From Opitutales bacterium (GTDB lineage: Bacteria; Verrucomicrobiota; Verrucomicrobiia; Opitutales; UBA953): a stretch of DNA of 64,000 nt. Of this stretch, positions 1 through 64,000 are shown piece by piece. The position numbers and the translations under genes are program-made. Within the stretch, counting starts at the first letter, position 1, and the number at the start of each line of letters is the position of its first letter. Location of the stretch: positions 62,001 to 126,000 of the forward strand of contig JAILGB010000011.1 in the NCBI GenBank assembly GCA_024697185.1, read 5' to 3'. The notes under the pieces are model-generated. The model did no database searches. It had not been told where the DNA came from and saw nothing but the letters and a program-made list of their open reading frames with translations.

Positions 1-2883
1 TTTGACCAGGTAGTCCGCCAGGATGAGGAGTCGGCTGCAAACCGGACAGTCGGGCGAAAGCTTGGTCTTGAGTTCGGCGACGCGGGCGCGTTGTGCGGCG
101 ATTTCGGCGTCGTTGGTCTGGGGGGATTCGAGAATTGCTTTTGCGAGTTCTTCCGGCACCTTGCCCTCTTCGACCATTTCCTTGAGGAACTGTGTCGCCA
201 TTTCCGCCTTTTTGTCGATAGCGTAGCGCATACCGAGTCCGAACTCTGCGTTGTCTTCGAAGAGCGAGTTTGCCCAAGCGGGTCCGCGGCCGTTTTCATC
301 GACGGCGTAGGGTGTCGTCGGGAGATTGCCGCCGTAGATGGACGAGCAGCCTGTCGCGTTGGCGATGTAGGCGCGGTCGCCGAAGAGTTGCGTCATCAGC
401 TTGATGTAGGGTGTTTCACCGCAAGCGGCGCAGGCTCCCGAAAACTCGATGAGCGGTTGGCGGAACTGCGAGTCCTTGACCGTATCGCCGAGCACGGTGC
501 GGTCGGGATTGGGGAGTTTGAGGAAGAATTCCCAGTTGTCGCGTTCGGCGTCGTGCAAGGGCTTTTGCGGCGCCATTGTGAGGGCGCGCTTTTCTTCCTT
601 GGTCGGACATGCGATCACGCAAACGCCGCAACCAGTGCAGTCTTCGGGCGCGACTTGGATCGTGAAGAGGTTGCCGGGGAGCTTGGGAGCTTTGAACGGC
701 ACGCTCTTGAAGGTCGCGGGAGCGTCGGCGACGAGGTTTTGCGGATAGAACTTTGCCCGGATGGCGGCGTGCGGACAGATGGTCACGCACTTGTTGCACT
801 GAATACAGTTTTCAGAATTCCAAACCGGGATGCGGTCCGCGAGATTGCGTTTTTCATATTGCGTTGTCGCACTCGGGAAGCAGCCGTCCACGGGCATTGC
901 CGAGGTCGGGATGAGGTCGCCCTTGTTGGCGATCATCATTGCCTGGACTTTTTTGAAAAATTCCGGAGCGCCGTCGTATGTCGGGACCTGAATCGGCTTT
1001 GCGTCCGCATCGGCTGTCGCGGGAACGCTGATTTCGTGGAGGTTGACCAGTGAGTTGTCAACAGCCTTGAAATTCATCTGCACGACATCGTCGCCTTTTT
1101 TGGCGTAGGTCTTCTGGATCGACTTTTTGATCTGCGCGATGGCTTCGTCGCGCGGCAGGACGCCGGCGAGAGCGAAGAAGCAAGCCTGCAAGACGGTGTT
1201 GGTGCGTCCGCGCATACCGGAATCGGCGGCGACTTTGGAAGCGTCAATCACATAGACATGCAGTTGTTTTGCGATGATTTCCTCCTGCCATTCCCGCGGG
1301 AACCGTTTCCAGGTCTCTTCCGGAGAGAAGGGCGAGTTGAGCAAAACGGTGGCTCCGTCCATCGCATAATCGAGCACCGGCTGGCGTCCGATATAGGCAT
1401 ATTGCGAGCAGGCGACAAAATTCGCTTTTTGGATGATATAGGCGGAGCGGATCGGCTTGGGGCCGAAGCGCAGGTGCGAGACGGTCGAGCCGCCGGACTT
1501 TTTGGAGTCATAGACGAAATAGCCCTGTGCGTAGTTGGGGGTGTTTTCGCCGATGATCTTGATCGAGTTTTTGTTGGCGCCGACGGTGCCGTCAGCTCCC
1601 AAACCGACGAAGACGGCGCGCGTCACCTCGTCGGACTCGACACTGAAGCGGTTGTCCCATTCGAGCGACATGTTTGTCAAGTCGTCGATGATGCCGATCG
1701 TAAAGCGTTTTTTGGGGGCTTCTTTGGCGAGTTCGTCGTAAATCGCCTTGACCATGCCGGGATTAAACTCTTTGGAGCCGATACCGTAGCGTCCGCCGAT
1801 GAGGGTCGGGAGTGCCTTGCCGGACTCGACAAATGCAGCCATAACCGACAGGAGCAAAGGCTCGCCGATCGAGCCGGGCTCTTTGGTGCGGTCGAGCACT
1901 GCGATCTTCTTGGCGGTCGCGGGAACGGCATTCAGGAACGCCGCCGCATCAAACGGCAGGAAAAGACGCACCTTGACCAAGCCAAGCTTTTCGCCCTTGG
2001 CATTGAGAGCATCGACGGTTTCGGAAATCGTGTCGCAGGCGGAGCCCATCGCGACGATCACGCGTTCGGCATCGGGAGCGCCGTAGTAGTCGTAAAGATG
2101 ATATTGACGGCCTGTCGCCACGGCAAACTTGTCCATCGTCGCCTGCACGATCGCGGGAACGGCTTCGTAGTATTTGTTTACGGCTTCGCGGCTTTGGAAA
2201 TAAACGTCCGGATTTTGCGCGGTGCCGTGAACATTGGGATGGTCGGGCGTCATGGCGCGGGAACGGAAAGCCTTGATGTCCTCCTCGTCGATCACGGCGC
2301 GAATCTCGTCATCGGAGATCGTCTGAATCTTGGAGACTTCGTGGGAAGTGCGGAAGCCGTCAAAGAAATGCATAAACGGCACGCGCGATTTGAGCGAGGA
2401 CGCATGGGCGATCAGCGCGAGATCTTCCGCCTCCTGGCCGTTGGTCGAGTTGAGCATCGCGAAACCTGTCGAACGGCAGCCCATCACGTCCGAGTGGTCG
2501 CCAAAGATCGACAAGGCGTTGGTCGCCAGGGCGCGCGCCGTCACGTGCATCGTGAACGGGATCAGCTCGCCCGCGATCTTATACATGTTGGGGATCATGA
2601 GGAGCAGACCTTGCGACGCCGTAAACGTCGTCGTCAGCGCGCCCGTCAGCAGGGAGCCGTGAACAGCACCGGCGACACCGCCTTCGGACTGCAGCTGCTC
2701 GATAGACGGCACGACATTCCAAAGGTTGGGCTGCTTTTTAGCCGCCCACTCGTCGCAGTTTTCCGCCATCGGCGAAGAAGGCGTGATCGGATAAATCGCG
2801 ATCACTTCACTCAGGCGATACGCGACAGACGCCACAGCCTCATTGGCGTCCATTGTCTTAAATTTCGGGGTTGTGTTTGCCAT
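1..2883 (-). CDS. nifJ: pyruvate:ferredoxin (flavodoxin) oxidoreductase, 3' end truncated by window edge
   Basis: Own minus-strand translation from ATG at 2883 (MANTTPKFKTMDANEAVASVAYRLSEVIAIYPITPSSPMAE...) is open to position 1. It contains two 4Fe-4S motifs (CIQCNKCVTICP, CTGCGVCVIACP) and GACAACGETPY. Missing from the ORF track because no stop lies in the window. Confidence 0.95.
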   Translation of the reverse strand, partial: MANTTPKFKTMDANEAVASVAYRLSEVIAIYPITPSSPMAENCDEWAAKKQPNLWNVVPSIEQLQSEGGVAGAVHGSLLTGALTTTFTASQGLLLMIPNMYKIAGELIPFTMHVTARALATNALSIFGDHSDVMGCRSTGFAMLNSTNGQEAEDLALIAHASSLKSRVPFMHFFDGFRTSHEVSKIQTISDDEIRAVIDEEDIKAFRSRAMTPDHPNVHGTAQNPDVYFQSREAVNKYYEAVPAIVQATMDKFAVATGRQYHLYDYYGAPDAERVIVAMGSACDTISETVDALNAKGEKLGLVKVRLFLPFDAAAFLNAVPATAKKIAVLDRTKEPGSIGEPLLLSVMAAFVESGKALPTLIGGRYGIGSKEFNPGMVKAIYDELAKEAPKKRFTIGIIDDLTNMSLEWDNRFSVESDEVTRAVFVGLGADGTVGANKNSIKIIGENTPNYAQGYFVYDSKKSGGSTVSHLRFGPKPIRSAYIIQKANFVACSQYAYIGRQPVLDYAMDGATVLLNSPFSPEETWKRFPREWQEEIIAKQLHVYVIDASKVAADSGMRGRTNTVLQACFFALAGVLPRDEAIAQIKKSIQKTYAKKGDDVVQMNFKAVDNSLVNLHEISVPATADADAKPIQVPTYDGAPEFFKKVQAMMIANKGDLIPTSAMPVDGCFPSATTQYEKRNLADRIPVWNSENCIQCNKCVTICPHAAIRAKFYPQNLVADAPATFKSVPFKAPKLPGNLFTIQVAPEDCTGCGVCVIACPTKEEKRALTMAPQKPLHDAERDNWEFFLKLPNPDRTVLGDTVKDSQFRQPLIEFSGACAACGETPYIKLMTQLFGDRAYIANATGCSSIYGGNLPTTPYAVDENGRGPAWANSLFEDNAEFGLGMRYAIDKKAEMATQFLKEMVEEGKVPEELAKAILESPQTNDAEIAAQRARVAELKTKLSPDCPVCSRLLILADYLVK

Positions 2884-2927
2884 ATGTCTAATATTGTGCG
2901 CCTCCCGCAAAAATTTTGCAATTTTTT

Positions 2928-4106
2928 TTATCCTGCGGGAACGGCGGCACAGGTCAGAGAAGCGACAGACATCCCATGGATGATTTTTTTGTCGGGCGGG
3001 CAAAAAGTCGCCAGCGTTCCCGCCCAAAAGAAAGCGTTCCCGCCCTTAAAATAATAAGGGCAGATTCTCACTCTGGCCATCGCGCCGTCGCCCGCGACTC
3101 CGGGAACTCGGCAAGGTTTTCTGTAACGCTGGCAAACATAAAAAATCTTTTCATTTTTTTTAATCGCCGCCAATTCCCGCTCCCATCGCGCCGCGGGAAC
3201 GTCCGCTCCGATCACGACGCTGCGGGAGCCCCAGGCGAGAGGCGAAAAACCGCTCGCCTTCAAAACCCATCGCGCGCGCTCTTTTTGCGTGAGATTTTCC
3301 AAACGCGGCGGGAACGCCGTTTCATCGCCGACAATCCAAGTCTCGGGAACGAGTTTTTTTAAGAGTGCCAGATCCGCCGCGGGAATCTGTTCCCTCCAAA
3401 AATTTTCAAGTCGCGGATGCCAGAAAAGCGCCAGGGACAATTTTTCCTCCTGGAACGGTCTCATCGGCGGCAGGACTTTCACGAGCCCGCGCTCGACCGC
3501 CTGCGGCAATTTTGCGCAATCGCCCAAGTTCGGCAAATCGAAGAGTTCGAAAAAACGATAGACGACATCGACGGGAACGCCGTCGGCAAAAACGCCTTGC
3601 TCCGTCACCTGCAGTTCCTCCGCGCGCACGAGCCTGACGCCCGTTCCCGCGAGCAGATATTCCATCTCCGGGCGATAGACGGCGGACTCGTCGCTCACGG
3701 CGACGACTGCCGTTTTTGCCGTTCCCGCGAAACTGTTAAAAAAAGCTTCGGGAACGCGCGTTCCCGCCAAAAACTCGCGTTCCAACGAAGCCGTCACTCC
3801 GATCCCGCCGGGAACGCTGTCCAGCTCGCACAAGACAAAGCCCTGCTCCGTAATCAACAAATCCGGGCGCAAAACCGGCGGCAAAACGCCCTGCACGGCG
3901 CGACTTGTCTGATGGGCGACAAGTGCAGGCGGCTTGCCGCGATCATAAAACGCCCGCACCCAGTCAAACGCAAAATAGCATTTTTCCAGCGCGCGGTAAA
4001 ATGCGGGAACGGCAGTCGCTAATCCGCGCAAATCCTCGACTTGCGCCCGGTCGGGGCTCCAGGCGCGAACGGCGGGACGCCAATTTTTCCCTGCAAACAG
4101 CTGCAT
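2928..4106 (-). CDS. hypothetical protein, possibly ATP-grasp-like
   Basis: 392 aa ORF; segment FVLCELDSVPGGIGVTASLE and a C-terminal Lys-containing region loosely resemble permuted ATP-grasp proteins. Very dense in the GCGGGAACG motif. Confidence 0.6.
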   Translation of the reverse strand: MQLFAGKNWRPAVRAWSPDRAQVEDLRGLATAVPAFYRALEKCYFAFDWVRAFYDRGKPPALVAHQTSRAVQGVLPPVLRPDLLITEQGFVLCELDSVPGGIGVTASLEREFLAGTRVPEAFFNSFAGTAKTAVVAVSDESAVYRPEMEYLLAGTGVRLVRAEELQVTEQGVFADGVPVDVVYRFFELFDLPNLGDCAKLPQAVERGLVKVLPPMRPFQEEKLSLALFWHPRLENFWREQIPAADLALLKKLVPETWIVGDETAFPPRLENLTQKERARWVLKASGFSPLAWGSRSVVIGADVPAARWERELAAIKKNEKIFYVCQRYRKPCRVPGVAGDGAMARVRICPYYFKGGNAFFWAGTLATFCPPDKKIIHGMSVASLTCAAVPAG

Positions 4107-4125
4107 AGAGGCAAAAAAAGAAAAA

Positions 4126-4153
4126 CCGTTCCCGCGGATTTTTACGGGAACGG
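4126..4153 (-). terminator. rho-independent terminator of eno built from an inverted pair of the 9-mer
   Basis: ccgttcccgcggatttttacgggaacgg, followed on the minus strand by a T-rich run. Confidence 0.75.
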
Positions 4154-4175
4154 CTTTTTGCTTTAATCGGGGCGA

Positions 4176-5540
<1,365 letters not shown>

Positions 5541-5615: not shown

Positions 5616-5661
5616 CGCGTTCCCGCGAAAACCGTTCCCGTGATTTTTTTTGCGGGAACGT
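5616..5661 (-). terminator. terminator built from three copies of the 9-mer or a variant
   Basis: gcgttcccgc..ccgttcccgt..ttgcgggaacg just downstream of the 5665-6474 gene, with T-rich minus-strand sequence after it. Confidence 0.7.
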
Positions 5662-6474: not shown

Positions 6475-6535
6475 AATTCAAAAAAGTTCGCGGGAACGCC
6501 AAATCCGAGCCGAGACCGCCGTTCCCGCGGGAACG

Positions 6536-13433: not shown

Positions 13434-13468
13434 AGCGTTCCCGCAAGTTCTTGTCTCGCGGGAACGCT
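13434..13468 (-). terminator. terminator built from a perfect inverted pair of the 9-mer
   Basis: agcgttcccgcaagttcttgtctcgcgggaacgct between 13388 and 13497. Confidence 0.8.
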
Positions 13469-19709: not shown

Positions 19710-19738
19710 ATTATAAATTATGCCGCGGGCCATAACAA
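19710..19738 (-). promoter_or_regulatory. sigma70-like promoter TTGTTA-17-TATAAT, 6 nt from the fabI ATG
   Basis: Hexamers, 17 nt spacer and distance read directly. Confidence 0.65.
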
Positions 19739-20736
19739 CGAAACAATCGCCCGAGCGTCTCCATTTTTATCGCTGTTTCCCGCCATTCCGCCTCAGGGAG
19801 CGAGTCCGGCAACAATCCGCCGCCCGCATAAAACTCCAAAGTTTTTCCCTCCAAGCGCATACAGCGCAAATTAACAAAAAGCCGGGCGACATCCGCTCCC
19901 CATTCGCCGACAAATCCGGCATAATATTTTCGCGGGAACGTTTCATGTTCCAAAATAAATTTTAAAGCTTCATCTCTCGGCGTTCCCGCAACGGCGGGAG
20001 TCGGGTGCAGGATTTTTACGGCGCGTGCCGCCTGTTCGAAGCTCGGGGGATTCAAAAAGAATTCCGTTTTCAAGTGTTCCAGCGTTCCCGCCAAGACCGT
20101 CTCTGTCTTTTCTTCACAAATTTGCAATCCCGCTTCACAAAGCCGTTCCCGCACAAAATCCGCAACCAAAGCCTGTTCCCGGCGATTTTTCAAATCCCAA
20201 GCGCCTCCCTGTTCCCGCGTTCCCGCGAGGGCGACCGTCCGCCAGGCGCCTTGCGATGAAAGCAAGATTTCCGGAGAACAGCCCAGCCACGTTCCCGTCT
20301 GCGGCGTATGAAAAAGATAAACGAAGGCGTTTTCGTAAGTCTCAAGCGCCTTTTGAAAAATCTGCAAAGGATCTACAGAATCCGTGGCAAAAAAACATTC
20401 CCGGCGCGACAAGACGATTTTTGAAAATTTCCCGTCTTTCAGCGCCTGCATAAATTTTGCAAACTGTCCGAAATAATCCTCCCGATTTTGCCCGAGGGCT
20501 TCAATCTCAAAATCCGCGGGAACGATTTTCGGCTCCACCGTTTCAATTTTTCCGACGAGCGCGATCGGCGGGCAATCTTTTGTTATCGCAAACGGTGCGA
20601 AAACAAAGCGGCGTTCCCGCGATGCCAGCAAGGCTTCGACCGAATCAAAGGCAGTCGGCGTTCCCGCGAGATGAAAGATTTGCCGTTCCCGCGGCAAACG
20701 CCAGAGAGCAAAAGAGCGTTCTGGGTCAAAATGCAT
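19711..20736 (-). CDS. menF: isochorismate synthase
   Basis: 341 aa; KIVLSRRE, TWLGCSPEILL, ALAGTREQGG, LHPTPAVAGTPRDEAL, YYAGFVGEWG. Confidence 0.93.
   Translation of the reverse strand: MHFDPERSFALWRLPRERQIFHLAGTPTAFDSVEALLASRERRFVFAPFAITKDCPPIALVGKIETVEPKIVPADFEIEALGQNREDYFGQFAKFMQALKDGKFSKIVLSRRECFFATDSVDPLQIFQKALETYENAFVYLFHTPQTGTWLGCSPEILLSSQGAWRTVALAGTREQGGAWDLKNRREQALVADFVRERLCEAGLQICEEKTETVLAGTLEHLKTEFFLNPPSFEQAARAVKILHPTPAVAGTPRDEALKFILEHETFPRKYYAGFVGEWGADVARLFVNLRCMRLEGKTLEFYAGGGLLPDSLPEAEWRETAIKMETLGRLFRCYGPRHNL
19932..20692. repeat. Dense cluster of the 9-mer GCGGGAACG/CGTTCCCGC (9 exact copies inside menF)
   Basis: Exact copies starting at 19932, 19981, 20093, 20144, 20218, 20516, 20612, 20659 and 20684, in both orientations. 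Confidence 0.9.
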
Positions 20737-21159: not shown

Positions 21160-22521
21160 TTAACAGTCAATCTCCTCTCCGGGAACGGGATTGAGGACTT
21201 TGGTATGCGGCAGTTGAATCGCGACTTCCTCCTCATACCATTCTCGCGCCACGGGATCGCCATGTGTGAGAATTATCAAACGGGGCTCCACAACATTCAA
21301 AAAATCCATCATGTTTTCTCTCGATGTGTGTCCGCTCAACGCATAACGCGCCACTGTCGCCCGAACCCGTGCGATATAATTGAGATCGTTAAAGCGCAGT
21401 TCATCGACATTGGTGCGCGTAAGAAGTCTTCCGCCGGGCGTGTCGGGATCGCAATAACCGACAAACGCCACCAAATTATGGGCATGGTCGAGCATGTTGG
21501 CTGCCAAACGCCAAGCCGGCGTCCGCTCGACCAGCATCCCGCTCGAGACCAAATAAATGCCCTGCACCGCCACATCGAGTCCGGGTTCCTCAAAATCGTT
21601 TAATTTTTGGACGCCCAAATCTTTCATCATCGCGCGATGGAAATTGACGGCGCCGGTCTTCTTGCTCATTATGTCAAAATAATCAGCCAAATCGAGTCCG
21701 AGTCCCGTGCAAAACACGGGAACGTCCTTGCCGATCAGCCCCTTGTTTTTGGCGCTCAACAAAACATGAATCATATCTTGCATCCGTCCGAACGCAAACG
21801 CCGGTATCAAAACGGAACCTCCGGAAGCAAGCGTTCCCGCGATATCGTTCACCAAACGGGACAATTCGTCGTCGCGCGTCAAATCGGGGTCTGTTTCCGT
21901 CCCGCCGCGCGTCGTCTCCATGATCAAAGTGTCAATTTTTTCTCGCGGGAACGATGCCGCATCCACCGTCTCCATCGAATGAAACGAAACATCACCCGTG
22001 CAAAAAATTTTTCGATGGCGATATTCAAACATCACACCGACAGCTCCGGCGACATGTCCTGCCGGATAAAGCGTGATGGTGATTTGCTCTCCGTGTTCAA
22101 AAAAAGTTTTAGGGACTCCGACAGGCAAAGCCGTCAAGTTGGCTTCAACGCGATCAAGCTCGCTATAAGTAAAAAGCGGATATTCAGGAATATGCTGTTC
22201 TTCCCGCTGGTGCTGCATCACTGAAATCGAATTTTTTAAAATGCGCTTGGCGATCAGTTTGGATGCCGGCGAGCACAAGATCGGAGTGTTGGGATGCTGG
22301 CGTGTAAAAATCGGGAACGCCCCCAAATGATCCAAATGGCAATGGGTCAAGACGGCAAAATCAACCAATATATTGTCCAAGCGGGAAATCTGCGGGAGCG
22401 CGGCACGTCCCAATTTTTTGGGATGCATCCCGCAGTCTATCAAAATCCGAAAAGGTCCGATCTCCAAAACCGAACAATTGGAGCCGATATCCGTTTCTGT
22501 GTTTAAATCCGTATAAAACAT
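21160..22521 (-). CDS. metallo-beta-lactamase/beta-CASP-family RNase-like protein
   Basis: 453 aa; LTHCHLDHLGAFP, AGHVAGAVGVMFEYRHRKIFCTGDVSF, ALSGHTSRENMMDFL, LTHGDP. Confidence 0.9.
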   Translation of the reverse strand: MFYTDLNTETDIGSNCSVLEIGPFRILIDCGMHPKKLGRAALPQISRLDNILVDFAVLTHCHLDHLGAFPIFTRQHPNTPILCSPASKLIAKRILKNSISVMQHQREEQHIPEYPLFTYSELDRVEANLTALPVGVPKTFFEHGEQITITLYPAGHVAGAVGVMFEYRHRKIFCTGDVSFHSMETVDAASFPREKIDTLIMETTRGGTETDPDLTRDDELSRLVNDIAGTLASGGSVLIPAFAFGRMQDMIHVLLSAKNKGLIGKDVPVFCTGLGLDLADYFDIMSKKTGAVNFHRAMMKDLGVQKLNDFEEPGLDVAVQGIYLVSSGMLVERTPAWRLAANMLDHAHNLVAFVGYCDPDTPGGRLLTRTNVDELRFNDLNYIARVRATVARYALSGHTSRENMMDFLNVVEPRLIILTHGDPVAREWYEEEVAIQLPHTKVLNPVPGEEIDC

Positions 22522-22523
22522 TT

Positions 22524-23522
22524 TTAAAGTAAGGTATCCTCGCGCGCTTCATTTTTTGTCGCCGCCGGAGACAAAAGAAGGCTGACACCTTCAAGCCCCT
22601 TGATCGGATCTGAAAATTCCGTTCCTTCAACCGCCGCATTCAAAGCGGACGAGATCATTGCCATTTTGGCGTCAAAATTGTCGATTTGAGAAATAAAAAT
22701 CGCCTCCGGAGTGCTTGCCATTACGGCAGCGCCCCATTCGAGTTTCCCCTGATGGCTCAAAATAATATGTTCCAAACGTTCCTGCAAATCCTCAGGCAAT
22801 TTATGTTTGATGCATTGCTTGCGCACGATCCGGTATCCCAAAACAACATGCCCTTGCAAAATGCCGACACGCGTTTTTTTTGTCGGTTCCGTCTGCGTGT
22901 ATTCGTAAACCTTCCCGACATCGTGCAAAAGTGCGCCCGCGATCGCCAAACTGCGATCGATCTCGGGATAAAGCGGCAAAAGGGCTTTGGCGACGCGCGC
23001 CAAATGCAAAGAATGCTCCAAAAGCCCGTGACGATAAGCCTGATGCATATACATCGCCGCCGGAGAATTATAAAAAAAGTCGCCCAAATCATCAATGACA
23101 GCCTGCGTCACCGCACGCAAGCCTTCATGAGGAATCTCTGCAATTGTTGTCGTCAGCTCCTCGCGCATCACATCAAAGTTTTCGGGTGAACAAGCGACTA
23201 ATCGCGGTTCATATTTTGCCACTTCGGTCGCGGGAACAGGCTTCACGTCTTCAATACTCGGAGAAAATTTTTCATTATAAAAACCGACCTTGGCATCGAC
23301 AAACAAATAGGAACCCGCCTCCTTGTCGCGAAAAAGTTCCAATTGCTTGGAACCAAAAACAGTTATGGTAAGTGTTCCCGTCGCATCTCCCAAATCAACA
23401 CTTAAAAATTCCGGACATTTTGAAGTCGAACGAATTGTCTTCTTTTTCAAAACCACTACCGTTTTAAAATATCCCTCTTTCAAGGCTTTTGCCTCTTTTA
23501 TCGTCAAATAGTTTTCATCCAT
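22524..23522 (-). CDS. 3'-5' exoribonuclease YhaM-like (OB + HD domain)
   Basis: OB-like N-terminus, HD motif IAGALLHDVGKVYEY, LSHQGKLEWGA. Confidence 0.87.
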   Translation of the reverse strand: MDENYLTIKEAKALKEGYFKTVVVLKKKTIRSTSKCPEFLSVDLGDATGTLTITVFGSKQLELFRDKEAGSYLFVDAKVGFYNEKFSPSIEDVKPVPATEVAKYEPRLVACSPENFDVMREELTTTIAEIPHEGLRAVTQAVIDDLGDFFYNSPAAMYMHQAYRHGLLEHSLHLARVAKALLPLYPEIDRSLAIAGALLHDVGKVYEYTQTEPTKKTRVGILQGHVVLGYRIVRKQCIKHKLPEDLQERLEHIILSHQGKLEWGAAVMASTPEAIFISQIDNFDAKMAMISSALNAAVEGTEFSDPIKGLEGVSLLLSPAATKNEAREDTLL

Positions 23523-23528
23523 AAGAGG

Positions 23529-23557
23529 ATTATACAAATTTTAAAGCATCCCCGCAA
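23529..23557 (-). promoter_or_regulatory. sigma70-like promoter TTGCGG-17-TATAAT, 6 nt from the YhaM-like ATG
   Basis: Read directly on the minus strand. Confidence 0.65.
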
Positions 23558-23564
23558 AAAAGAA

Positions 23565-23593
23565 ACGCCTCGCAAGACTTAACCGCGAGACGT
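23565..23593 (-). terminator. rho-independent terminator downstream of the pilin gene
   Basis: acgcctcgc...gcgagacgt inverted repeat with T-run on the minus strand. Confidence 0.65.
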
Positions 23594-23614
23594 TCTCTTT
23601 TAAGTGATGAGCAA

Positions 23615-24334: not shown

Positions 24335-24404
24335 AACGTTAAATAGTGGGGTTTGATTTACTGAATTTATGTTAAGACAAATTTATGACGCTTTCAAGTA
24401 TTTT

Positions 24405-25655: not shown

Positions 25656-25679
25656 AGATAGTTTCTTACAACAAAAACC

Positions 25680-26111: not shown

Positions 26112-26119
26112 ATAGGGAA

Positions 26120-26148: not shown

Positions 26149-26178
26149 TTAAAAAGCATTTATCTCAAACAAAAAAAG

Positions 26179-27978: not shown

Positions 27979-27986
27979 CTCTTTGA

Positions 27987-47940: not shown

Positions 47941-50544
47941 CTAATCACCAACGGGAGCGGGAGCCAGCACGAGCCGGAATCCGACATCTGCCTTGGAGAT
48001 GTCCGCCGACTTGTAGTGTTTGACGGAATTTGAACGGCAGTAGCCCATCGGTTCCCGGCAGCTTCCTCCGCAAGCGGGAACCTCGGATTTTGACTTTTTT
48101 AAATCCTGACACCACTCCCAAACGTTCCCGTGCATATCATAAAGTCCCCATTTGTTAGGTGCCTTTAGCCCGCATGTATGCGGATGAGCTCGAGAGTTCC
48201 CGCTCCACCAGGCGACCCTGTCCAAATCCCGACCCGTATTGCCGTTGCAAAACCATGTTTGCGTTCCCGCACGACAAATGTATTCCCACTCATCCGTCGT
48301 CGGCAAACGGAATTCCCAATCCTCGCCGATCAATCCCGCCGCACGCGACAAGCGCGTCAATTTTTCACAAAAACGGCAAGCCTCGCTCCAAGAGACATTT
48401 GTGACCGGCAACATTTCCATTTCTTCTTCCGTGTAGCCTTTTACGGGATACGACGGATTTTTTCCCATCATCAAACGATAAGCTCGCTGAGTCAATTCAT
48501 ATCGCGACGCCTGATAATCTTTTCGGGGAATCTCTACGAAACCGTCTTTGATTTCCTGCAAAATCCCTACATAGGCGACCGCTTCCTCTCGCACCTTTCT
48601 TCGCGCTTCCTCCTCTTTTGTCAAAATCGGCTCGACGGGGACGGCGGGCGGAACTGATTTTTCCACGGGAACGGATTCTTTTCCCTCAACCGCGGGAACG
48701 GATTCTTTTCCCTCAACCGCGGGAACGGCATTTTTCGAGACCAACACAATACGGAATCCGAGATCCGACCAATTTTTCCTGTCGGGATGCGTCCATGATT
48801 TTTCACCGCAATGACAATCAGTGTTGTTCGAATGATGAATGCTCGAACCTCTATAGGTCTTGTCTTCCGTCCATTCCAACATATTGCCGTGCATATCAAA
48901 AATCCCATAAGCGTTGGGGGCCAACTCCCCGACCGGATGGGGCGAGCCGTGGCAATTCTCGCGGGACCAGCCGCAAAAGGAATTCTTGTCCCACGGTTCA
49001 TTCTCATTTTCATCTTCACGATGACGACAAAGTTCCGTAAATTCCTCATTGGTCGGGAGCCTGAAAAAATATTCCTCGGAAATTAATCCGTGTTCCCGCG
49101 CATACGCCGTCAGCTTTTCACAGTAACGTTTCGCCTCATACCACGAAACTCCGCCAACGGGAACCGTATCGACAAAGCCGGTCTCCTTCGTCGTCCCCTC
49201 AAACGCATCCCACTGGTGACGCGTGATCTCGCACGTTCCCGCCCAAAAACCTTCACGGATTTTAACAAGCTCGGGGACGACTTGTGTTTTCGCAAAATCG
49301 CGTTCAAGATCTTTTTTTACTAATACCACACGGAAACCCGTGTCCGGACTTTTCCAATTTTTTTCCTCGAACAAAGCCTCACAAATTTTGTGATCGTCAC
49401 ATGTTAAAAATCCGCCGCCGCGCACAAACGCCATTGATTCATGTTTTCCCGAGACGCACCATTCGCGCACATTCCCGCTCATGTCAAAAAAACCCCATTC
49501 GTTCGGTTTTTTTTGCCCGACACGATGAGCCGTTCCCGCGGCATTGCCCCCGCTCCAATCATAATCCATCAACAAAAGTTCATCGTCACAACCTGCATAA
49601 CAATTCCCCGTTCCCGCGCGCGCCGCACAAAACCATTCATACGGAGTCGGCAGACGAAATTCGAGATCTTCGCCAATCAATGATCTTTCTCGCGCCCAAT
49701 CCGTCAATTTTTTGCAAAATTCATCCGCCTCATACCACGAGACATTTGTCATCGGCAACATTGCCGCTTCCGCATCTTCCAACGCTTCTCCGACAATCTT
49801 CGACCAAAAATCTCGCGTCACCTCATATTGCCCCATATGGCAATAATCAAGACCTGGGATCTCAAGCAAATTCAGTTCCGAAAAAACATCCGGCGCTCCC
49901 GCAACTGTTTCGCCCGCTCCCGTCAAATCGTTTTTTTCTTCCCCCGCCAGAGGAGAGCCGTTCCCGCCGATAAGTTTAAACGCGGACACGCCACATAAAA
50001 ACAGCAGGGAAATGCCGACTGCGGCAAAAACAAAAAATCTCAAAAAATTAACATTCTTTTTCGAAAGAACTTCTTTTGCCGTTCCCGCAGTTTTCTGAGA
50101 ACTCACCTTCTTTATCTTTTTCGTTCCCGCGGGCTTTTTTTCGGGCGATGGCGTTCCCGCGACTTTTGAGACTTCTCCCCGATTAAAAACACTCCTTATC
50201 TTGTCGGCGCCTCCATCGGATTTACGCGTCGGGAACAATTTTTCATCAGCCCTTGTTTTTTCCTGCTCCACGTGGTGTTCTTTCCACACGGCATCATATT
50301 TTTGCCGAGCGTCAGAATCCGCCAAAATATCATAAGCTTCGTTAATTTGCGCCGCCAATCGGACATATTTTGACAAATCGCTTTCTCCTACGTGAAAATC
50401 AGGATGAAATTTTCGAATTTTACGAAGCCATGCCCTGCGAATCGCTCGCCCGCTCGAATAAACGCTAATTCCCAACAATGCATAGTAATCGACAAAGCCA
50501 TCGCCTTTGTCGCGATTATGGGGCGAGGACTCTTTGGCGCTCAT
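47941..50544 (-). CDS. J-domain protein with TM segment and three SUMF1/FGE-like domains
   Basis: DYYALLGISVYSSGRAIRRAWLRKIRKFHPDFHVG (HPD); TM near FFVFAAVGISLLFLCGVSAF; three domains each with Y/CEITR...TNVSWYEA-type...FDM(S/H)GN(V/M)xEW. Confidence 0.87.
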   Translation of the reverse strand: MSAKESSPHNRDKGDGFVDYYALLGISVYSSGRAIRRAWLRKIRKFHPDFHVGESDLSKYVRLAAQINEAYDILADSDARQKYDAVWKEHHVEQEKTRADEKLFPTRKSDGGADKIRSVFNRGEVSKVAGTPSPEKKPAGTKKIKKVSSQKTAGTAKEVLSKKNVNFLRFFVFAAVGISLLFLCGVSAFKLIGGNGSPLAGEEKNDLTGAGETVAGAPDVFSELNLLEIPGLDYCHMGQYEVTRDFWSKIVGEALEDAEAAMLPMTNVSWYEADEFCKKLTDWARERSLIGEDLEFRLPTPYEWFCAARAGTGNCYAGCDDELLLMDYDWSGGNAAGTAHRVGQKKPNEWGFFDMSGNVREWCVSGKHESMAFVRGGGFLTCDDHKICEALFEEKNWKSPDTGFRVVLVKKDLERDFAKTQVVPELVKIREGFWAGTCEITRHQWDAFEGTTKETGFVDTVPVGGVSWYEAKRYCEKLTAYAREHGLISEEYFFRLPTNEEFTELCRHREDENENEPWDKNSFCGWSRENCHGSPHPVGELAPNAYGIFDMHGNMLEWTEDKTYRGSSIHHSNNTDCHCGEKSWTHPDRKNWSDLGFRIVLVSKNAVPAVEGKESVPAVEGKESVPVEKSVPPAVPVEPILTKEEEARRKVREEAVAYVGILQEIKDGFVEIPRKDYQASRYELTQRAYRLMMGKNPSYPVKGYTEEEMEMLPVTNVSWSEACRFCEKLTRLSRAAGLIGEDWEFRLPTTDEWEYICRAGTQTWFCNGNTGRDLDRVAWWSGNSRAHPHTCGLKAPNKWGLYDMHGNVWEWCQDLKKSKSEVPACGGSCREPMGYCRSNSVKHYKSADISKADVGFRLVLAPAPVGD

Positions 50545-50890: not shown

Positions 50891-53818
50891 TTATTGAGCC
50901 ACCTTAACATTTTCCTCACTGACAATCTCAGCATCGTAATCACGATATGTCGGTCCGGAGGAAATGAAGAGTGTCGGATTCGAATAAGTCGCACCGCGTT
51001 GAACACCCTTGAAGTTGCCTTCCTCTGTTCCTCCGCCACGAGCGATCAGATTCGCCGTAACAAAGATGAGCAAGTTCTTCTTGGTGACAGACTTTCCTGT
51101 CGAACGGAAAGCAGATCCGATAAGCGGGAGATCACCCAAAATCGGCACCTTGTCATTAACCGTGCGGATTTCTTCGCGAGTCAAACCACCGATAACAATC
51201 GTTCCGCCGTCAAAGACTTCGACTGTCGTCTCGACTTCGCGCAAATTGAAGACCGGCTGGAAGAAGCCTGCAGGCGTTGTGACAACAGTTCCCGAAGCAA
51301 TCGCGACTGCTGTTCCGCCGTATTCGACAAAACCTTCAAACTCCTTAATCGAAGCGTTCAAACCGGAGAAGGTGATGGAACCTTCTTCCTTATTGACGGA
51401 AGGCTGGACACGAAGTTGAATACCCACTTCCGTCGCATCTTCGTCAAACTGTGGCGTTCCGGGAGTAATACCAACAGAAGATGAGCCCGAAGAGTTGTTA
51501 TTATTGTTGTTATTGTTGTAACCGTTGCTCGACGAAACCTGGATTTGCATATCGTCGTAGGACTGTGGCCAGCGCAACAATTGAACAATCTTGATGTTCG
51601 CCTCTTGCTCGGACTGGACAGTCAACGACGGAGCAGCCATGATGTCCGTACCGGACTTGGAGTCAAGAGCGTTGAGAACCATCCGGAGATCATAATCGCC
51701 GATTGTCCCAATCACACCCGAGAAGGTCGGCAACGCATCCGAACCGTAGTAAGGATTCAGCGGAGGTTGACGCGGAACTTGCGGCGGCTTTTGAGAAACG
51801 ACCTTCTTCAAGCCTTCCGTTGTTGCGGTGATGTCACCATCGTCATTGGTGTAAACTTGATCAGGGCCTTCAATCGTCGTCACCGAATTTTCAGCGACAG
51901 AATAATGCGCACCGGTAATCGTGCGATTGTTGGTCGCAGAACGGACGAACATATTTTCGCCCTCTCCGCGCGTCGCCTGCCAGTTCATCACAACCTGATT
52001 GAGTGCGTCACTGTTGACCTCGATAAATTTGGCTTCGATATTGACCTGCTTTGTTTCTGCGGAGTTCAAACTCTTGAGAACATTTTTAATACGGTCCATG
52101 TTCTTGGAGTCGGTTGTAACGAGCAGCAAGTTTCCGGAAGAATCATAAACGAGGGAGCGGCCGCCTTCCCAAGAAACACCGGCGCGAGCAAGGAAGCTCT
52201 TGATTGCCGCATCTTCAGATCCGCCGGCACTCTCGTCCGAGCCGCCGCCAAAAGCGGAACCACCGTCATCGTCGCCTCCAGCCTTGCGCCCGACCATTCG
52301 AGCGACGACTTTAGGTTGGACGGTAAATTCTTCGTTTTCAAAACCTTCATTTGAAAGATTGGGTGTCACTTGGACAACGCCGTCTTTCACTTGATAAGAA
52401 CATCCGATCTGACGCAAAACGAGGTCGAGCACCTTGTCGAGCGAAGTGGCGCTCATCGTAATGGAAATCGGCTCTTTCGCCTTCTTTTGCTCCGGATCAA
52501 TCAAAACGATGTCAACGCCCTTTCCTACTTCATCGTAGGTTTGAGACAATTCGCTCAATGTTTCAAGCGCGCGCTGCAAAGGAGCATCCTTCAAAGATAC
52601 CGGCACTTTGATGCGCTTCATGCGCGCTACGAGCGGATCTTGCTCTTCCGCCTCTTCTTTTGCTGTCGAAACGGCGGTAAAAACTTGAGCCATGCGCCAT
52701 TTTTCGTCAATGTCGCCCAGCATCACTTCACGAGTCAATTCGCGGTTATAAGCGCCCGAGTTCGCCAAAATTTTACGAATTTTAATTTGCATCGCCTTCG
52801 CTTCCGCATTATCGGGCAAATAGAGCAATGCTTGCGAATAGCTGTCTAACGCACCGTGATAGTCGCCATACATATATTGGGCTTTTGCGCGATGCAACGC
52901 TTCCATACCATTTGCCTCCGCACGAATGAACGCGGGATTGATTGTCGCAGGATTTTGTGCATCCGCCGTCTGGCGCCACTCGTCATAAAAGGCTTTCAAA
53001 CGAACATAAATACGATGCTTCGGTCCCAAAAGATCTTCCACGTATTTGAGATAAGTCAACGCTTCGTTTGCGGAACGATTATCCACCATCTGGAAGAAAT
53101 AAGCCGTATAAACTAATGCGCGCTCCTCGTCAATTTCCTTGGAAAGCTCAGCGCATGATGTTACATTCGGCAAAATCTTTTTCGCTTCGTTGAGCGATTG
53201 GATTGCGTCCGCCAAATAACCGCCCGAACGTTCTTCACGCCCCTTTTCCAACGCACGACGAGCTTTGACAACGCCCTCTCGAATATCGCGACGGGCCTGG
53301 TCTGTCATTTCTTCCGTCGTCACGCTATGTTGTCCCGCCAAGGCGTCGTGACGAATTGCATTGATGCGGTCAAAATAAGGTGCAGACGCCGGCGTGTTCG
53401 ACAAAGCCGATTCCACTTCATCCAAAAGTCGAAGCGCGCGATTGACATTGCCAAGCGCGATCAATTCTTCCGCCTCCGCCAACGCTGTTGCCGCTTCTGC
53501 ATAAAGAGCCTGACGCTCGTTGACAATCTTCTCAAAATCTGTCGACGAGTCCGTCACTGTTGCAGGAGTGGACTCCGCTGTCGCAATGGCCGCCGCTCCT
53601 TTTTCCGACTCCACCAAACGGACCTTCGCTTGTTCGTTTGTAGGATCAAGTTCCAAATAGGCACGATATTTTTCAACCGCCGTCGTATAGTCTTTTTGGG
53701 AATATGCAGACTCTGCCTCAAGATAAAGTGCTGCTGCCTCATCATCGTCCGCCATCGCACCCGGGACAAGCGCAATCGCTGCAGAAGTAAGCAAAAATGA
53801 AGAAACTATTTTATTCAT
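50891..53818 (-). CDS. type IV pilus secretin-like outer-membrane protein (Amuc_1098-like)
   Basis: 975 aa, signal peptide, TPR-like repeats, secretin core (INIEAKFIEV..., VEVFDGGTIVIGGLTREEIRTVNDKVPILGDLPLIGSAFRS). Confidence 0.9.
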   Translation of the reverse strand: MNKIVSSFLLTSAAIALVPGAMADDDEAAALYLEAESAYSQKDYTTAVEKYRAYLELDPTNEQAKVRLVESEKGAAAIATAESTPATVTDSSTDFEKIVNERQALYAEAATALAEAEELIALGNVNRALRLLDEVESALSNTPASAPYFDRINAIRHDALAGQHSVTTEEMTDQARRDIREGVVKARRALEKGREERSGGYLADAIQSLNEAKKILPNVTSCAELSKEIDEERALVYTAYFFQMVDNRSANEALTYLKYVEDLLGPKHRIYVRLKAFYDEWRQTADAQNPATINPAFIRAEANGMEALHRAKAQYMYGDYHGALDSYSQALLYLPDNAEAKAMQIKIRKILANSGAYNRELTREVMLGDIDEKWRMAQVFTAVSTAKEEAEEQDPLVARMKRIKVPVSLKDAPLQRALETLSELSQTYDEVGKGVDIVLIDPEQKKAKEPISITMSATSLDKVLDLVLRQIGCSYQVKDGVVQVTPNLSNEGFENEEFTVQPKVVARMVGRKAGGDDDGGSAFGGGSDESAGGSEDAAIKSFLARAGVSWEGGRSLVYDSSGNLLLVTTDSKNMDRIKNVLKSLNSAETKQVNIEAKFIEVNSDALNQVVMNWQATRGEGENMFVRSATNNRTITGAHYSVAENSVTTIEGPDQVYTNDDGDITATTEGLKKVVSQKPPQVPRQPPLNPYYGSDALPTFSGVIGTIGDYDLRMVLNALDSKSGTDIMAAPSLTVQSEQEANIKIVQLLRWPQSYDDMQIQVSSSNGYNNNNNNNNSSGSSSVGITPGTPQFDEDATEVGIQLRVQPSVNKEEGSITFSGLNASIKEFEGFVEYGGTAVAIASGTVVTTPAGFFQPVFNLREVETTVEVFDGGTIVIGGLTREEIRTVNDKVPILGDLPLIGSAFRSTGKSVTKKNLLIFVTANLIARGGGTEEGNFKGVQRGATYSNPTLFISSGPTYRDYDAEIVSEENVKVAQ

Positions 53819-54893: not shown

Positions 54894-56036
54894 CTATTCT
54901 GCCGCACCTTCTTCTTTTTCGGCAATCTCCATCTTCGCGTTCATCTCTTCAAAAGTGAAGGCTGAAAAATATTCCATGGTAATCACAAAATCGCTCGGAG
55001 CTTCTTCAACGACAAGTTTTTTGGCAGGTGCGCGCGGTGCACTTGCACTGGGAGCAGCGGGAGCACCGCCAAAAAATCCGAAATCGAGTCCCCCGTCTGC
55101 AGGAGCCGACACATTGCGATCATCCTGTTTTTGCCTCGGGAACACATTTTCAGAAGCGGGAACGACTTTGATGTCGGCAATATAAATCGAATACTTTCTG
55201 AGTTCGTTGACCAAATCGCGAATAACACCGGTGTCGGTCGCCACTCGAAACTGGACTGCGAACGCCCAGGAATACTTATCCCGACAAAATGTGCGGATTT
55301 CGTTTGTTTTGCCCGAGCTGTCTTCAAGTTCGACAAGACCGACTTCTCCACCATTTTTTTTAACCTTGAGCGTCATTTCGTCCTTCGCCATATTGCGTTT
55401 CTGTTCGTTCGGGAATTCGCTCGCCTGACGAGTTACAGAAATAAGTTTTGTCCAAACAGCCTTGTCCGGCTCCAGGACATTGGCGGCGCGCAACATTTTT
55501 GTGCGCTCTTCCGTGCTGCGTGCTAAGATCTCCACGACTTTTGAAACAACCTCATATTGGCAACACAAAACCCCCAACTTGTCTTGCGGGGCCTTATCAC
55601 CATTTTTGAGATAACGCGAAAAACCGAAAAATCTAGAATCGCCCGTCAATTGAACACCGGCCTTCTGACAACGCTCCGCCAGTCTTTGGCTCTGGTCTTG
55701 AAGCATTGAATTAAAAGCCGTCGGATCAGCCGGGCCTCCCGGCTTGCTGTCAAAACGATAGGGCGCCGTCAAAATTTTAAAACGCTCGAAAGACGCCGCG
55801 AAAGATGCCTTTTGAAGCGCCTCGCCCGCCTCGATATTTTCTTGGGAGAGCGAAAGTTCTTCGCCCTGGTTCACCAAATCTCTATATTGGCGATCCACCC
55901 GATTAAATTTCGTTTCTTTCCCGCTGATATCGCCCATTTTGAAAACGATCATCGCGATTCCTGCGAGCATGACCACCGCGCAGACCGACATCGCTGCGGC
56001 AAGCACGATCAGCAATGGTTTTTTATTTGCAGCCAT
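54894..56036 (-). CDS. Amuc_1100-like pilus-associated protein (PilO position)
   Basis: N-terminal TM; PTAFNSMLQDQSQRLAERCQKAGVQLTGDSRFFGFSRY resembles the recalled Amuc_1100 segment PTAFQNELKTFRDSLISSCKKKNILITDTSSWLGFQVY. Confidence 0.75.
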   Translation of the reverse strand: MAANKKPLLIVLAAAMSVCAVVMLAGIAMIVFKMGDISGKETKFNRVDRQYRDLVNQGEELSLSQENIEAGEALQKASFAASFERFKILTAPYRFDSKPGGPADPTAFNSMLQDQSQRLAERCQKAGVQLTGDSRFFGFSRYLKNGDKAPQDKLGVLCCQYEVVSKVVEILARSTEERTKMLRAANVLEPDKAVWTKLISVTRQASEFPNEQKRNMAKDEMTLKVKKNGGEVGLVELEDSSGKTNEIRTFCRDKYSWAFAVQFRVATDTGVIRDLVNELRKYSIYIADIKVVPASENVFPRQKQDDRNVSAPADGGLDFGFFGGAPAAPSASAPRAPAKKLVVEEAPSDFVITMEYFSAFTFEEMNAKMEIAEKEEGAAE

Positions 56037-56038: not shown

Positions 56039-57808
56039 TTAAATTCCCTCCTTGTCTTTAAGACGGATTGTAAATGTTATTGTCGGAAGATTCGCAGGAT
56101 TCAAATTCGCCGAATCTGAAATACCTCCCGGCTCGGCAGAATGCATATTGCGAGCCAGTACCTCCCGAAGCATTTTCAAGCGAGCATTGAAGATTTTTGC
56201 ATTATGGCTCGGATTCATCCCGTCGATTTCCGGGATTAACAGCTTGAAAGTCACGATCAAGTCGCTATTGACTTTTGCGGGAACGGCTGGTTTGTCTCCG
56301 TCCGCATCCTTGGCGGGAACATAGTTCCGTTTGACCTCCATGCTCTCGATCCAAATATGCCTGTCACTCGCGGGGACAAGTTCACCGTCTGTAGTCTTCG
56401 ATGCCAAAGACGCCAACTCCAATTGCGTTTTTTGCAATTCTTCAAGGACTTCGTTCCAGTTGTAGCGATTGTCTAAAATCCTATCGACCGACACCACATA
56501 ATCATTACAGGCATCAATACCTTTTTGCAGATTTTGAACACGAATCTTACGCTCGTTCAAACTGTTGATCGCCTTCTGTTGCTCTTGAATATCCTTTACC
56601 ATCGCAACAGCCTGTTCCTCGGCTTTCATAAAAACAAGCCATGGTGCCACAGCAATCATCATGCCGCCCAATACATACCAGGGAATTTGTTTTTTGAACG
56701 CAGCGATTTTCACCAACTCCTGCGGGAACAAATTTACAGTCGGGATTTCGGGAACGACCAAAATCGCCGCAGCGCCGATTGCCTCCTGAAGCTGTGCGCT
56801 ATTCTCCTTTATTTCCCCTTCCGGAATATAGGGGGCGATTTCCACATAATCCGTAACAGAAAGGCGTTCGACCGGAACTTTTTGAAGGGTCGAAAGCGAT
56901 TGGAAAAATCCGGGAGCCAAACGACCGCGCCCCGATGCGAGAATCCGCGTAGGCTTATCGCCGCGCTTGCGCAAAACGACCAATCGAAGAGTAATCTCCT
57001 TGCTCAGACGGCGCACAAACTTATCACATGCCGCCGCCACAACACCCCCGACATCCGTTGCAGGGAAGGCACCCGTTTCGTTGTAAACGGAAAAAACCTC
57101 CAATTTAAGCCGCTCCGCCTTTTCAAAATCAATACCTTGCGCCTCTGCAATCGTCTGGGTTACAAAGTTGCCGCCGACATTTATATTGTTGACGCTGTAT
57201 CCTGTCGGACTGACATAAGTCAAATTGCTTGTTTTTGCTCCTACATTGAGCACCAATACCGTTTCATTGAGCGTCCCGTTCAATCTTTCCAGATAACGAT
57301 ACGCCTGAATATCGAGAATCGTGTTCGGCTGAATGTGTGTCGGCTTCAAACCCGCGAGGCGCGCCTGCTCGATCAAACGATTAGCTTTTTCAAGCTTCAT
57401 CGCGAAGAAAATCAACTCTTCCTCGATTTCATCCCTATTGACGCTTTGCGCGTCCCAGACTAATTCGTCAAGCGGGATTAGGCGCTGGAACTGCGCTGCG
57501 GCCTCTTCCGCATAAATTTTGCGCCGGCGCGATTCATCCGTCACCGTCGCGATTCTTGCTTCCTTGGTAATCAAAAACTGACCGGGAACGACGAGCGCGA
57601 CATTGCCCTCGGACTTGATCTGTTTAGCGATCACCCGCATCGCGCGAGCAATCTCCGACTCCCATGAGTTCTCATCCGAATAGTCATAAGACAGGGGCTC
57701 GGTTATAAACTGCTCAAGATACAACGCACCGTTTTTCTCGGAAAAAACCGATCCCGTCACATGCGTCGTGCCGCAATTGATAATTGTTTTCGCACTAACT
57801 TTTGCCAT
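56039..57808 (-). CDS. PilM-like ATPase fused to PilN-like TM/coiled-coil domain (Amuc_1101-like)
   Basis: Actin-like PilM N-terminus (NVGAKTSNLTYV, VNNINVGGNFVTQTIAEAQGIDFEKAE), then TM WYVLGGMMIAVAPWLVF and coiled coil. Confidence 0.8.
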   Translation of the reverse strand: MAKVSAKTIINCGTTHVTGSVFSEKNGALYLEQFITEPLSYDYSDENSWESEIARAMRVIAKQIKSEGNVALVVPGQFLITKEARIATVTDESRRRKIYAEEAAAQFQRLIPLDELVWDAQSVNRDEIEEELIFFAMKLEKANRLIEQARLAGLKPTHIQPNTILDIQAYRYLERLNGTLNETVLVLNVGAKTSNLTYVSPTGYSVNNINVGGNFVTQTIAEAQGIDFEKAERLKLEVFSVYNETGAFPATDVGGVVAAACDKFVRRLSKEITLRLVVLRKRGDKPTRILASGRGRLAPGFFQSLSTLQKVPVERLSVTDYVEIAPYIPEGEIKENSAQLQEAIGAAAILVVPEIPTVNLFPQELVKIAAFKKQIPWYVLGGMMIAVAPWLVFMKAEEQAVAMVKDIQEQQKAINSLNERKIRVQNLQKGIDACNDYVVSVDRILDNRYNWNEVLEELQKTQLELASLASKTTDGELVPASDRHIWIESMEVKRNYVPAKDADGDKPAVPAKVNSDLIVTFKLLIPEIDGMNPSHNAKIFNARLKMLREVLARNMHSAEPGGISDSANLNPANLPTITFTIRLKDKEGI

Positions 57809-58716: not shown

Positions 58717-59688
58717 TCACCAAATCGTCTTCGCCCGATATGACTCGATTTCGCTTTGGATCTGATCTGAAAACTTTGCAAAAAAATCTATCCCCGTCGC
58801 CGCTTCGATTTCATCGATCGTCGCAATATACCGCGCAGGATCCTTATCGAGATTCTTACTGTTGGGAACTATAAACGAGAGTGTCCGCATCTTGTCTCCG
58901 TCAAGATCCGCCAAAATCAAAAAACACGCTTCGGGAACAGCGACACCGCTACCATTTTTAAAACGTTCGATCTTATCGCCGTAAACCGGCCCGCAAATCA
59001 CATAAACCCTCCCGTAACGCCGCGTATAGCGATGCAAGACACGCTGCTCCAAATTTTTCCAAAGCCCCGCATTCATCTCGTGATATTGCGGCACGATATT
59101 GGACATCAAAAATGTAGAGAGCTGCGCCTTTTCGCCATAACACGCGCCTATAGCCTGATTGGGAGCCATATGCCCCCGATCAAAACCCGTTCCAGTATAA
59201 TCGTCATGAGAAATTCGGGAACGGGTTCTTGAGTCCTCCAAAAATTTTCCGGGGCGCGCGACCGTTTCAAACTTTTCGGGATAAGTCAACGCATAGGCGC
59301 ACCATGCCGGATTCTTTTTGTCCTCGTCATAAGAAATCAAATACGCGTCATTTTTTATAAAATGCGCCCGCTCAAACACCGGAACACCGCCCAAAACAAA
59401 ACCTTCCTCCGAGACCTGTCCGACATCGACAGAAAGCCCATACACATAAGGGATTTTGTCCGCAACCTGGTCGAGGACAAAAACAAGTTCCGGATTGGCA
59501 AACCGGCTTTCGCGCACAAAATCAATCAGGGCAACAAGATTTTTTTCCACAAAATCCTTCGTTTCCCGATCCCCAAAAAAATGAATCGGCCAAATCATCG
59601 CCAATACAAACGCCGTTCCCGCAAAAGACCAGAACAAACGCTTGATTGAAAATTTTTTTAAATTATATTTACGACGCCTTCTTGACAT
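58717..59688 (-). CDS. membrane-anchored DNA/RNA non-specific endonuclease (NUC1, DRGH motif)
   Basis: TM LFWSFAGTAFVLAMIWPIHFF; catalytic GTGFDRGHMAPNQAIGA and NIVPQYHEMNAGLWKNLEQ. Confidence 0.9.
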   Translation of the reverse strand: MSRRRRKYNLKKFSIKRLFWSFAGTAFVLAMIWPIHFFGDRETKDFVEKNLVALIDFVRESRFANPELVFVLDQVADKIPYVYGLSVDVGQVSEEGFVLGGVPVFERAHFIKNDAYLISYDEDKKNPAWCAYALTYPEKFETVARPGKFLEDSRTRSRISHDDYTGTGFDRGHMAPNQAIGACYGEKAQLSTFLMSNIVPQYHEMNAGLWKNLEQRVLHRYTRRYGRVYVICGPVYGDKIERFKNGSGVAVPEACFLILADLDGDKMRTLSFIVPNSKNLDKDPARYIATIDEIEAATGIDFFAKFSDQIQSEIESYRAKTIW

Positions 59689-60611: not shown

Positions 60612-60652
60612 CGTTCCCGCGAAAAAGTCGAGAAAGTTTTTTCGCGGGAACG
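60612..60652 (-). terminator. hairpin downstream of clpB, perfect inverted pair of the 9-mer
   Basis: cgttcccgcgaaaaa...ttttttcgcgggaacg; weak minus-strand T-run. Confidence 0.6.
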
Positions 60653-63264: not shown

Positions 63265-63387
63265 AGTTTTTCCTCCTACAAACCAAATAGCAATAAGCAT
63301 GCCAAAAACTGCAAAAGCCCGTTCCCGCTTTTGAATGGCGGTGAAAGGACGAGCGTCATATAATCAATTTTAAAGATTTGGCGCCTT

Positions 63388-64000
63388 ATGAAAATCCTCT
63401 GTCTCGACATCGGCAACACGCATACGCACTATGCCGTCATGGAAAATCGCCGCGGGCTGATTAGCGGCGCGATCGAAACGCAACGGATTTCCAGCGCCGC
63501 CGACGGCGTTCCCGCGCTTATGTTGCGCAAGGACGTCAAAACTCTCGATCTCGCCGGAATCGCCTTTTGCTCTGTCGTCCCGCTCGCGACCGAACGTTTG
63601 GAACAGAGCCTCAAACTGATGACGGAACTTCCCGTCTGCCGTCTCTGGCACAAAAACTGCCCCGGGCTCGGCATTCACTATCCCCAGCCGGCGGAAATCG
63701 GTCCCGACCGTTTGGCGAACTGCATCGGCGCCCAGGCGAGATTTGGCGCTCCCGCCGTCATCATCGACATGGGAACCGCCGTCACGTTTGACATCCTCAC
63801 CCAAAACGGCTACGAAGGCGGCATCATCGCTCCCGGCATCGGGGTCATGACCAAATATCTCCACGAACAGACAGCTCTTTTGCCGGAACTGAAACCGCGG
63901 GAACTCCTTCTCGCCGAAGACGATTCCGCCATCGGCAAATCAACATTGGCGGCAATGAAATTCGGATGCGCCGTCGGTTTTGCGGGAATGATCGATGCCC
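63388..64000 (+). CDS. coaX: type III pantothenate kinase, 3' end truncated by window edge
   Basis: Own translation MKILCLDIGNTHTHYAVMENRR...VIIDMGTAVTFDILTQNGYEGGIIAPGIGVM; missing from the ORF track because no stop lies in the window. Confidence 0.9.
   Translation, partial: MKILCLDIGNTHTHYAVMENRRGLISGAIETQRISSAADGVPALMLRKDVKTLDLAGIAFCSVVPLATERLEQSLKLMTELPVCRLWHKNCPGLGIHYPQPAEIGPDRLANCIGAQARFGAPAVIIDMGTAVTFDILTQNGYEGGIIAPGIGVMTKYLHEQTALLPELKPRELLLAEDDSAIGKSTLAAMKFGCAVGFAGMIDA

Follow-up and report, generated by a model that had tools for sequence, protein, structure and literature searches.

Why does one 9-bp word, GCGGGAACG/CGTTCCCGC, recur throughout a stretch of DNA from an Opitutales bacterium (Verrucomicrobiota), and might it be a word by which cells recognise DNA for uptake? 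The window, by which we mean the whole 64-kb stretch analysed, holds 115 exact copies, 47 on the plus strand and 68 on the minus strand, whereas dinucleotide shuffles of the same DNA gave a mean of 1.6 copies of GCGGGAACG and at most 6, and an order-2 model of the window predicts 1.3, for an observed-to-expected ratio of 86. The original prediction had described the 9-mer as highly iterated, listing nine start positions within 3001-4200 and nine copies within a 1026-bp menF gene; every one of the former proved exact, and the latter are all present. The excess extends across the 1.59-Mb genome, in which GCGGGAACG occurs 3488 times, with 1662 copies on one strand and 1826 on the other; the reversed word occurs 48 times. 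Within the 453 kb of this genome that were sampled for detailed analyses, GCGGGAACG is the top-ranked 9-mer by frequency; an order-4 Markov model expects 212 copies in these 453 kb, a figure not taken as the null because the word itself inflates it. A literature search for the 9-mer returned apparently unrelated papers only, whose titles suggest primers and human genes, and a search for papers on uptake sequences of Verrucomicrobia or Opitutales found none. On the evidence set out below, we consider it probable (about 0.77) that GCGGGAACG serves this Opitutales genus as a genomic DNA-uptake sequence. The features of the window that concern the word itself are as follows.

1019-63515, unstranded: the 115 exact copies of GCGGGAACG, genic and intergenic
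5618-5660, unstranded: intergenic inverted pair with T-runs on either side, bidirectional terminator-like
6520-6535, unstranded: palindrome CGTTCCCGCGGGAACG, two head-to-head overlapping copies at a gene edge
13436-13466, unstranded: intergenic inverted pair, stem-loop with T-tracts on both strands, terminator-like
19711-20736, minus strand: isochorismate synthase (menF-type; NCBIfam), 9 copies in 1026 bp
21946-32350, unstranded: motif-poor region with rpoA, ribosomal S4 and S11 and serine hydroxymethyltransferase; the copy at 27457 is the sole one until 32343
35311-35326, unstranded: second palindromic overlapping pair, within a peptidase gene
60612-60652, unstranded: intergenic inverted pair followed by ATTTTCTTTTTT, terminator-like

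The word is asymmetric (non-palindromic) and tightly defined. CGGGAACG forms its core. The 9-mer opens with G in 66% of cases and with A in about 20%; positions 2-6 hardly vary, whereas 1, 7 and 9 are more relaxed, and weak flank preferences (Y and S before, S after) stretch the word to about 12 bp, giving an extended consensus of about TYSGCGGGAACGS, which in intergenic copies is followed by a T-tract. As had been proposed, single-mismatch variants are in excess in the window (ACGGGAACG, 29 copies against 0.8 expected; GCGGGAGCG, 22; TCGGGAACG, 16; GCGGGAACA, 12), though positions 2-6 tolerate almost no mismatch. When perfect copies were divided by all 27 single-mismatch copies, the window's genome (G000) gave 0.97 for the 9-mer and 1.28 for the core 8-mer, and the ratio was 0.6-0.8 in rich congeners and about 0.05 in other genera. 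Such a strict consensus is a hallmark of the uptake sequences known as USS and DUS (PMC1626085). Other 12-13-mers are also repeated in the window, namely CTGCAGGCTCTT (8 copies), GGTTGAAGAACC (9, both strands counted) and CTTCTGCGGGAGC (8).

The word is restricted to one Opitutales genus. Six of its eight members, the window's genome and five congeners, are rich in it, with 3060-4396 copies, and two (G001 and G006) are poor, with 743 and 336; outside the genus, across the family and a 388-genome sample of the phylum, no genome had more than 282. The named members of the genus are metagenome-assembled genomes (MAGs) from the gut of sheep, goat and buffalo. Those from goat rectum and water-buffalo colon probably belong to it, because rpoA puts them among the nearest and both carry the word, the buffalo one weakly. 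Within the genus, DprA proteins share no more than 46-50% identity with that of G000, and the word is therefore old. In a ComEC tree, G001 and G006 are sister to G000 (97/96) and the remaining five rich genomes fall on the opposite side, while the DprA tree did not resolve the branching order of G000 and G001/G006. The simplest history would place the word in the ancestor of the genus, with later decay in the G001/G006 lineage.

The original prediction had asked whether relatives share the word or vary it as DUS dialects do. Sharing was borne out, with six members rich and two having nearly lost the word; dialects were not, the word being present, decayed or absent. Two candidate dialects were rejected: AGCGTGCCG in the sister genus g3 is merely weakly enriched genome-wide (262 against 59), and GGGTTGGTGG in G006, which had looked like a dialect switch, lies in clustered repeat arrays with a spacing of roughly 18 bp, not in dispersed single words. 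These G006 arrays consist of GGGTTRGTGGTGR words, mostly about 18 bp apart, clustered and often at contig ends (examples are L075:13047-13318, L254:115-629 and L257:1864-2122, among other G006 loci), and GGTTRGTGG occurs 177 times in 160 kb of G006 and almost never in relatives; they are a G-rich, possibly quadruplex-forming repeat family specific to this lineage. Word-carrying phages were likewise considered and set aside: the 16-bp palindrome turned up in 10 viral contigs, but none of them is motif-dense.

How does the word compare with established uptake sequences? USS and DUS occur at about one copy per kb, show no orientation bias, form opposite pairs, are in excess outside genes, are shared among relatives and have a strict consensus (PMC1626085, PMC1939737). 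Each of these sequence features was found for the present word when tested, at a higher density of 2.2-2.75 copies per kb, roughly double the classical value. The DUS of Neisseriaceae are 10-mers with a CTG core that exist as dialects; like them, the present word is short, non-palindromic, present in thousands of copies (Eikenella corrodens has 3269 copies of its DUS; PMC3630211), found in both orientations, strict in consensus, arranged in inverted pairs and restricted to a clade, in a host with a type IV pilus, ComEC and DprA. It differs from DUS in its core, GGGAACG, which lacks CTG, in its phylum, in its density and in that no basic ComP-like pilin, ComEA or dialect series was seen. The USS of Pasteurellaceae are AAGTGCGGT and ACAAGCGGT; they share with the present word a 9-bp core, a T-rich downstream flank in intergenic copies, perfect copies about as numerous as or more numerous than mismatched ones, enrichment outside genes and a member in which the pattern is weakened, in their case H. 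ducreyi (PMC1626085, PMC1939737). Unlike USS, the present word has an unrelated core, lies in an unrelated phylum and has flanking tracts that are much weaker in coding copies. The receptor for USS is predicted to be ComN/PpdA (PMC12616744), for which no counterpart was recognised in the present genome.

Turning to the machinery that uptake would use, the window itself encodes part of a type IV pilus, with a secretin of the Amuc_1098 family, which fits the placement of the genome in Opitutales (Verrucomicrobiota).

23615-24334, minus strand: type IV pilin-like protein with a prepilin methylation motif and an acidic soluble part (pI 4.9)
50891-53818, minus strand: type IV pilus secretin PilQ, Amuc_1098 family; zero copies of the word
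54894-56036, minus strand: Amuc_1100-family pilus protein (E = 3e-14, below the curated cut-off)
56039-57808, minus strand: PilM (PF11104)
58717-59688, minus strand: DNA/RNA non-specific endonuclease (PF01223), beside the pilus operon

Elsewhere the genome encodes ComEC (by its NCBIfam N-terminal domain) and DprA, together with two PilB-type ATPases, PilT and PilC on contig C19 and four pilin-like genes in a conserved cluster on contig C2. Of the competence and pilus genes named in the original prediction, ComEC, DprA and a type IV pilus with PilT were thus located, but a stand-alone ComEA was not found, strong HHH_3 matches being confined to ORFs of about 800 aa. The soluble parts of all seven prepilin-motif proteins are acidic (pI 4.2-5.1), and therefore no ComP-like basic pilin is apparent. 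The PF01223 family includes competence nucleases in other bacteria, and the endonuclease at 58717-59688 is a possible DNA-processing nuclease. ComEC, DprA and PilQ are also present in sister genera without the word, and the uptake machinery is kept in the two decayed members; the machinery therefore does not track the word. Likewise, in most transformable bacteria a pilus and ComEC do not predict such a word. The window's PilQ is 60-62% identical to those of G001 and G006 and 40% identical to those of other congeners, a contrast exceeding that seen for ComEC or DprA, and the secretin may have been exchanged. G001 (C36:55330-56803) and G006 (C62:5468-7300) each have an additional four-gene pilin-like cluster near a second secretin; the motif-rich members have just seven pilin-like genes each. 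The window also encodes an 867-aa protein (47941-50544) with an unusual combination of an N-terminal DnaJ domain and a C-terminal GldK/sulfatase-modifying-factor-like region.

Two alternatives would keep the word's function inside the cell. One, which is improbable, is an asymmetric 9-bp self-mark of a categorically different kind: distributed genome-wide, it would tell self from non-self in defence, in repair or in the organisation of the chromosome, would have reshaped the proteome of a single bacterial genus and would be unconnected with DNA uptake. The other, also unlikely, is an iterated element like cyanobacterial HIP1 (GCGATCGC, palindromic and linked to orphan methyltransferases), which would have spread by intracellular selection, not through uptake, as an orphan methyltransferase target, a repair or strand-discrimination mark or a nucleoid-protein site. 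The density of the present word is comparable to that of HIP1 in high-HIP1 cyanobacteria, and genomes rich in the motif are not the only ones with the uptake machinery, both of which count in favour of such an element. HIP1 also tracks CGATCG methyltransferases and, like the present word, is clade-wide with exceptional low-copy members (PMC4390886). HIP1, however, is a palindrome, whereas the present word is asymmetric, differs in sequence and has a terminator-pair pattern; its excess at gene 3' ends, its terminator-like inverted pairs and its ratio of perfect to mismatched copies fit USS/DUS.

Overall, the word is denser between genes than within them. Copies per kb number 5.55 in convergent intergenic DNA, 3.31 in co-directional intergenic DNA, 2.27 in genes and 1.89 in divergent intergenic DNA, values that are approximate, genes having been called with a simple caller (81% coding). 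Between genes, inverted pairs within 40 bp number 21 against 6.4 expected, with T-runs at 15 of the 21, in keeping with the paired terminators that had been claimed, and close direct intergenic pairs number 29 against 7.6. It seems that the inverted pairs were recruited to terminate transcription. Among the longest stretches free of the motif are conserved genes (rpoA/S4/S11 and PilQ) and a low-GC restriction island, an absence that also resembles DUS and USS. This island, two adjacent GmrSD-type restriction genes without a single copy of the word (L056:438-5101; C18 at about 146.4-151.1 kb), was likely acquired recently, because it is low in GC and lacks the word.

The distribution of copies between strands bears on a further possibility, a Chi-type site modulating an AddAB/RecBCD-like nuclease. 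Contig C18 carries 158 copies on the plus and 227 on the minus strand, and most of its genes lie on the minus strand. In the sampled DNA, own-strand copies make up 58.5% of those in minus-strand genes where GC skew is negative and 57.6% where it is positive, and 68% and 71%, respectively, of those in plus-strand genes. Genes thus show no replication polarity beyond that of gene strand, which speaks against Chi or KOPS; the replichore skew singled out in the original prediction as a point to check is lacking in coding DNA once gene strand is corrected for. Intergenic copies do lean with GC skew (111:60), probably through the terminators of co-directional genes, since TTTT follows 43% of intergenic copies on their own strand. 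Most congeners do have an ORF, some 1060-1190 aa long, that carries a PDDEXK_1 (AddB/RecB-type) domain, as a Chi-type site would lead one to expect, but in coding DNA the word lacks the polarity relative to replication that marks Chi, inverted pairs are common, and the known Chi sites are polarised and either shorter or much less dense. We regard this explanation as very unlikely.

More doubtful still is that the copies are remnants or targets of a dispersed mobile repeat of the REP/MITE kind. Perfect copies are about as numerous as singly mismatched ones, as in young repeats, and some copies pair as hairpins; yet conservation fades only a few bases beyond the core, genes contain hundreds of in-frame copies, and no larger element is associated with them.

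Within genes, the word has left an imprint on proteins. In the window's genome, Ala-Gly-Thr (AGT) and Val-Pro-Ala (VPA) occur at 6.6 and 6.4 times the expectation from residue frequencies, and 273 of 303 AGT are spelled as the word (GCG GGA ACG). The permuted peptides TGA and APV, by comparison, are near 1, and AGT and VPA in genus g2 are at 0.5-1.5 times expectation. Given ancestral presence followed by decay, remains are expected in G001 and G006, and peptide fossils were indeed found: AGT and VPA stand at 3.0 and 3.1 times expectation in G001 and at 2.3 times each in G006, while AGT is spelled as the word in only 23 of 80 and 6 of 45 cases, respectively. In the same two genomes the ratio of perfect to singly mismatched copies has fallen to 0.24 and 0.18, with perfect copies above expectation and near-misses dominating. 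The word has therefore altered protein sequences in a way that outlasted the word itself, and we regard these fossils as the strongest evidence that the peptides follow the DNA word and not the reverse. Both orientations and several reading frames had been claimed for the copies, and all six readings are in fact used. That mutation bias, or a preference for certain codons or peptides, produced the word as a side effect is scarcely conceivable: two frames do dominate in genes (AGT 273 and xVPA 178, of 696 copies), but intergenic copies exist, which already refutes it, their density exceeds that in coding DNA, their logo matches the coding one, and sister genera lack these peptides.

The word is also maintained against mutation. 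Between sister genomes with 88-92% DNA identity, motif sites are identical more often than 9-mers of the same composition: 76% against 39% for G004/G005 (p = 7e-16), 89% against 62% for G007/G003 (p = 5e-8) and, in the reverse direction, 72% against 58% for G003/G007 (p = 0.002). Most of the motif sites that differ do so by a single base, as do 44 of 65 in G004/G005.

Taken together, the genome-wide excess, the lack of replichore skew in coding DNA and the presence of ComEC, DprA and a pilus with PilT support the candidate DNA-uptake sequence of the original prediction. GCGGGAACG is a strong candidate for a word that works like DUS and USS, would have arisen separately and would stand outside both homologous families. 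The sequences show the accumulation, placement and maintenance of the word, its loss with fossils and the presence of uptake genes; a receptor, preferential uptake and drive are the inferred steps of the proposed mechanism. A surface or pilus protein would bind the double-stranded word, so that pilus retraction preferentially draws in DNA of the same genus, which would then pass PilQ and ComEC, guarded by DprA, and recombine at homologous sites. Word-bearing alleles would be taken up more often, and the word would build up at every site where the protein permits it, with Ala-Gly-Thr and Val-Pro-Ala presumably the readings best tolerated. In G001 and G006 this specificity has probably been lost or relaxed, leaving the word to decay.

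Uptake words have been documented in Neisseriaceae and Pasteurellaceae, and were not known in other transformable bacteria at the time of a 2006 paper (PMC1626085). If the DNA-uptake reading is true, the Opitutales word would be a third, unrelated in sequence and from another phylum, and would show that this form of bacterial mate choice evolves repeatedly; it would also offer an independent test in the debate over drive versus selection. For this, the genus constitutes a natural experiment, with the word in force in six genomes and decaying in two others, where its peptide imprint persists. The finding suggests, moreover, that uncultured gut Verrucomicrobiota transform naturally.
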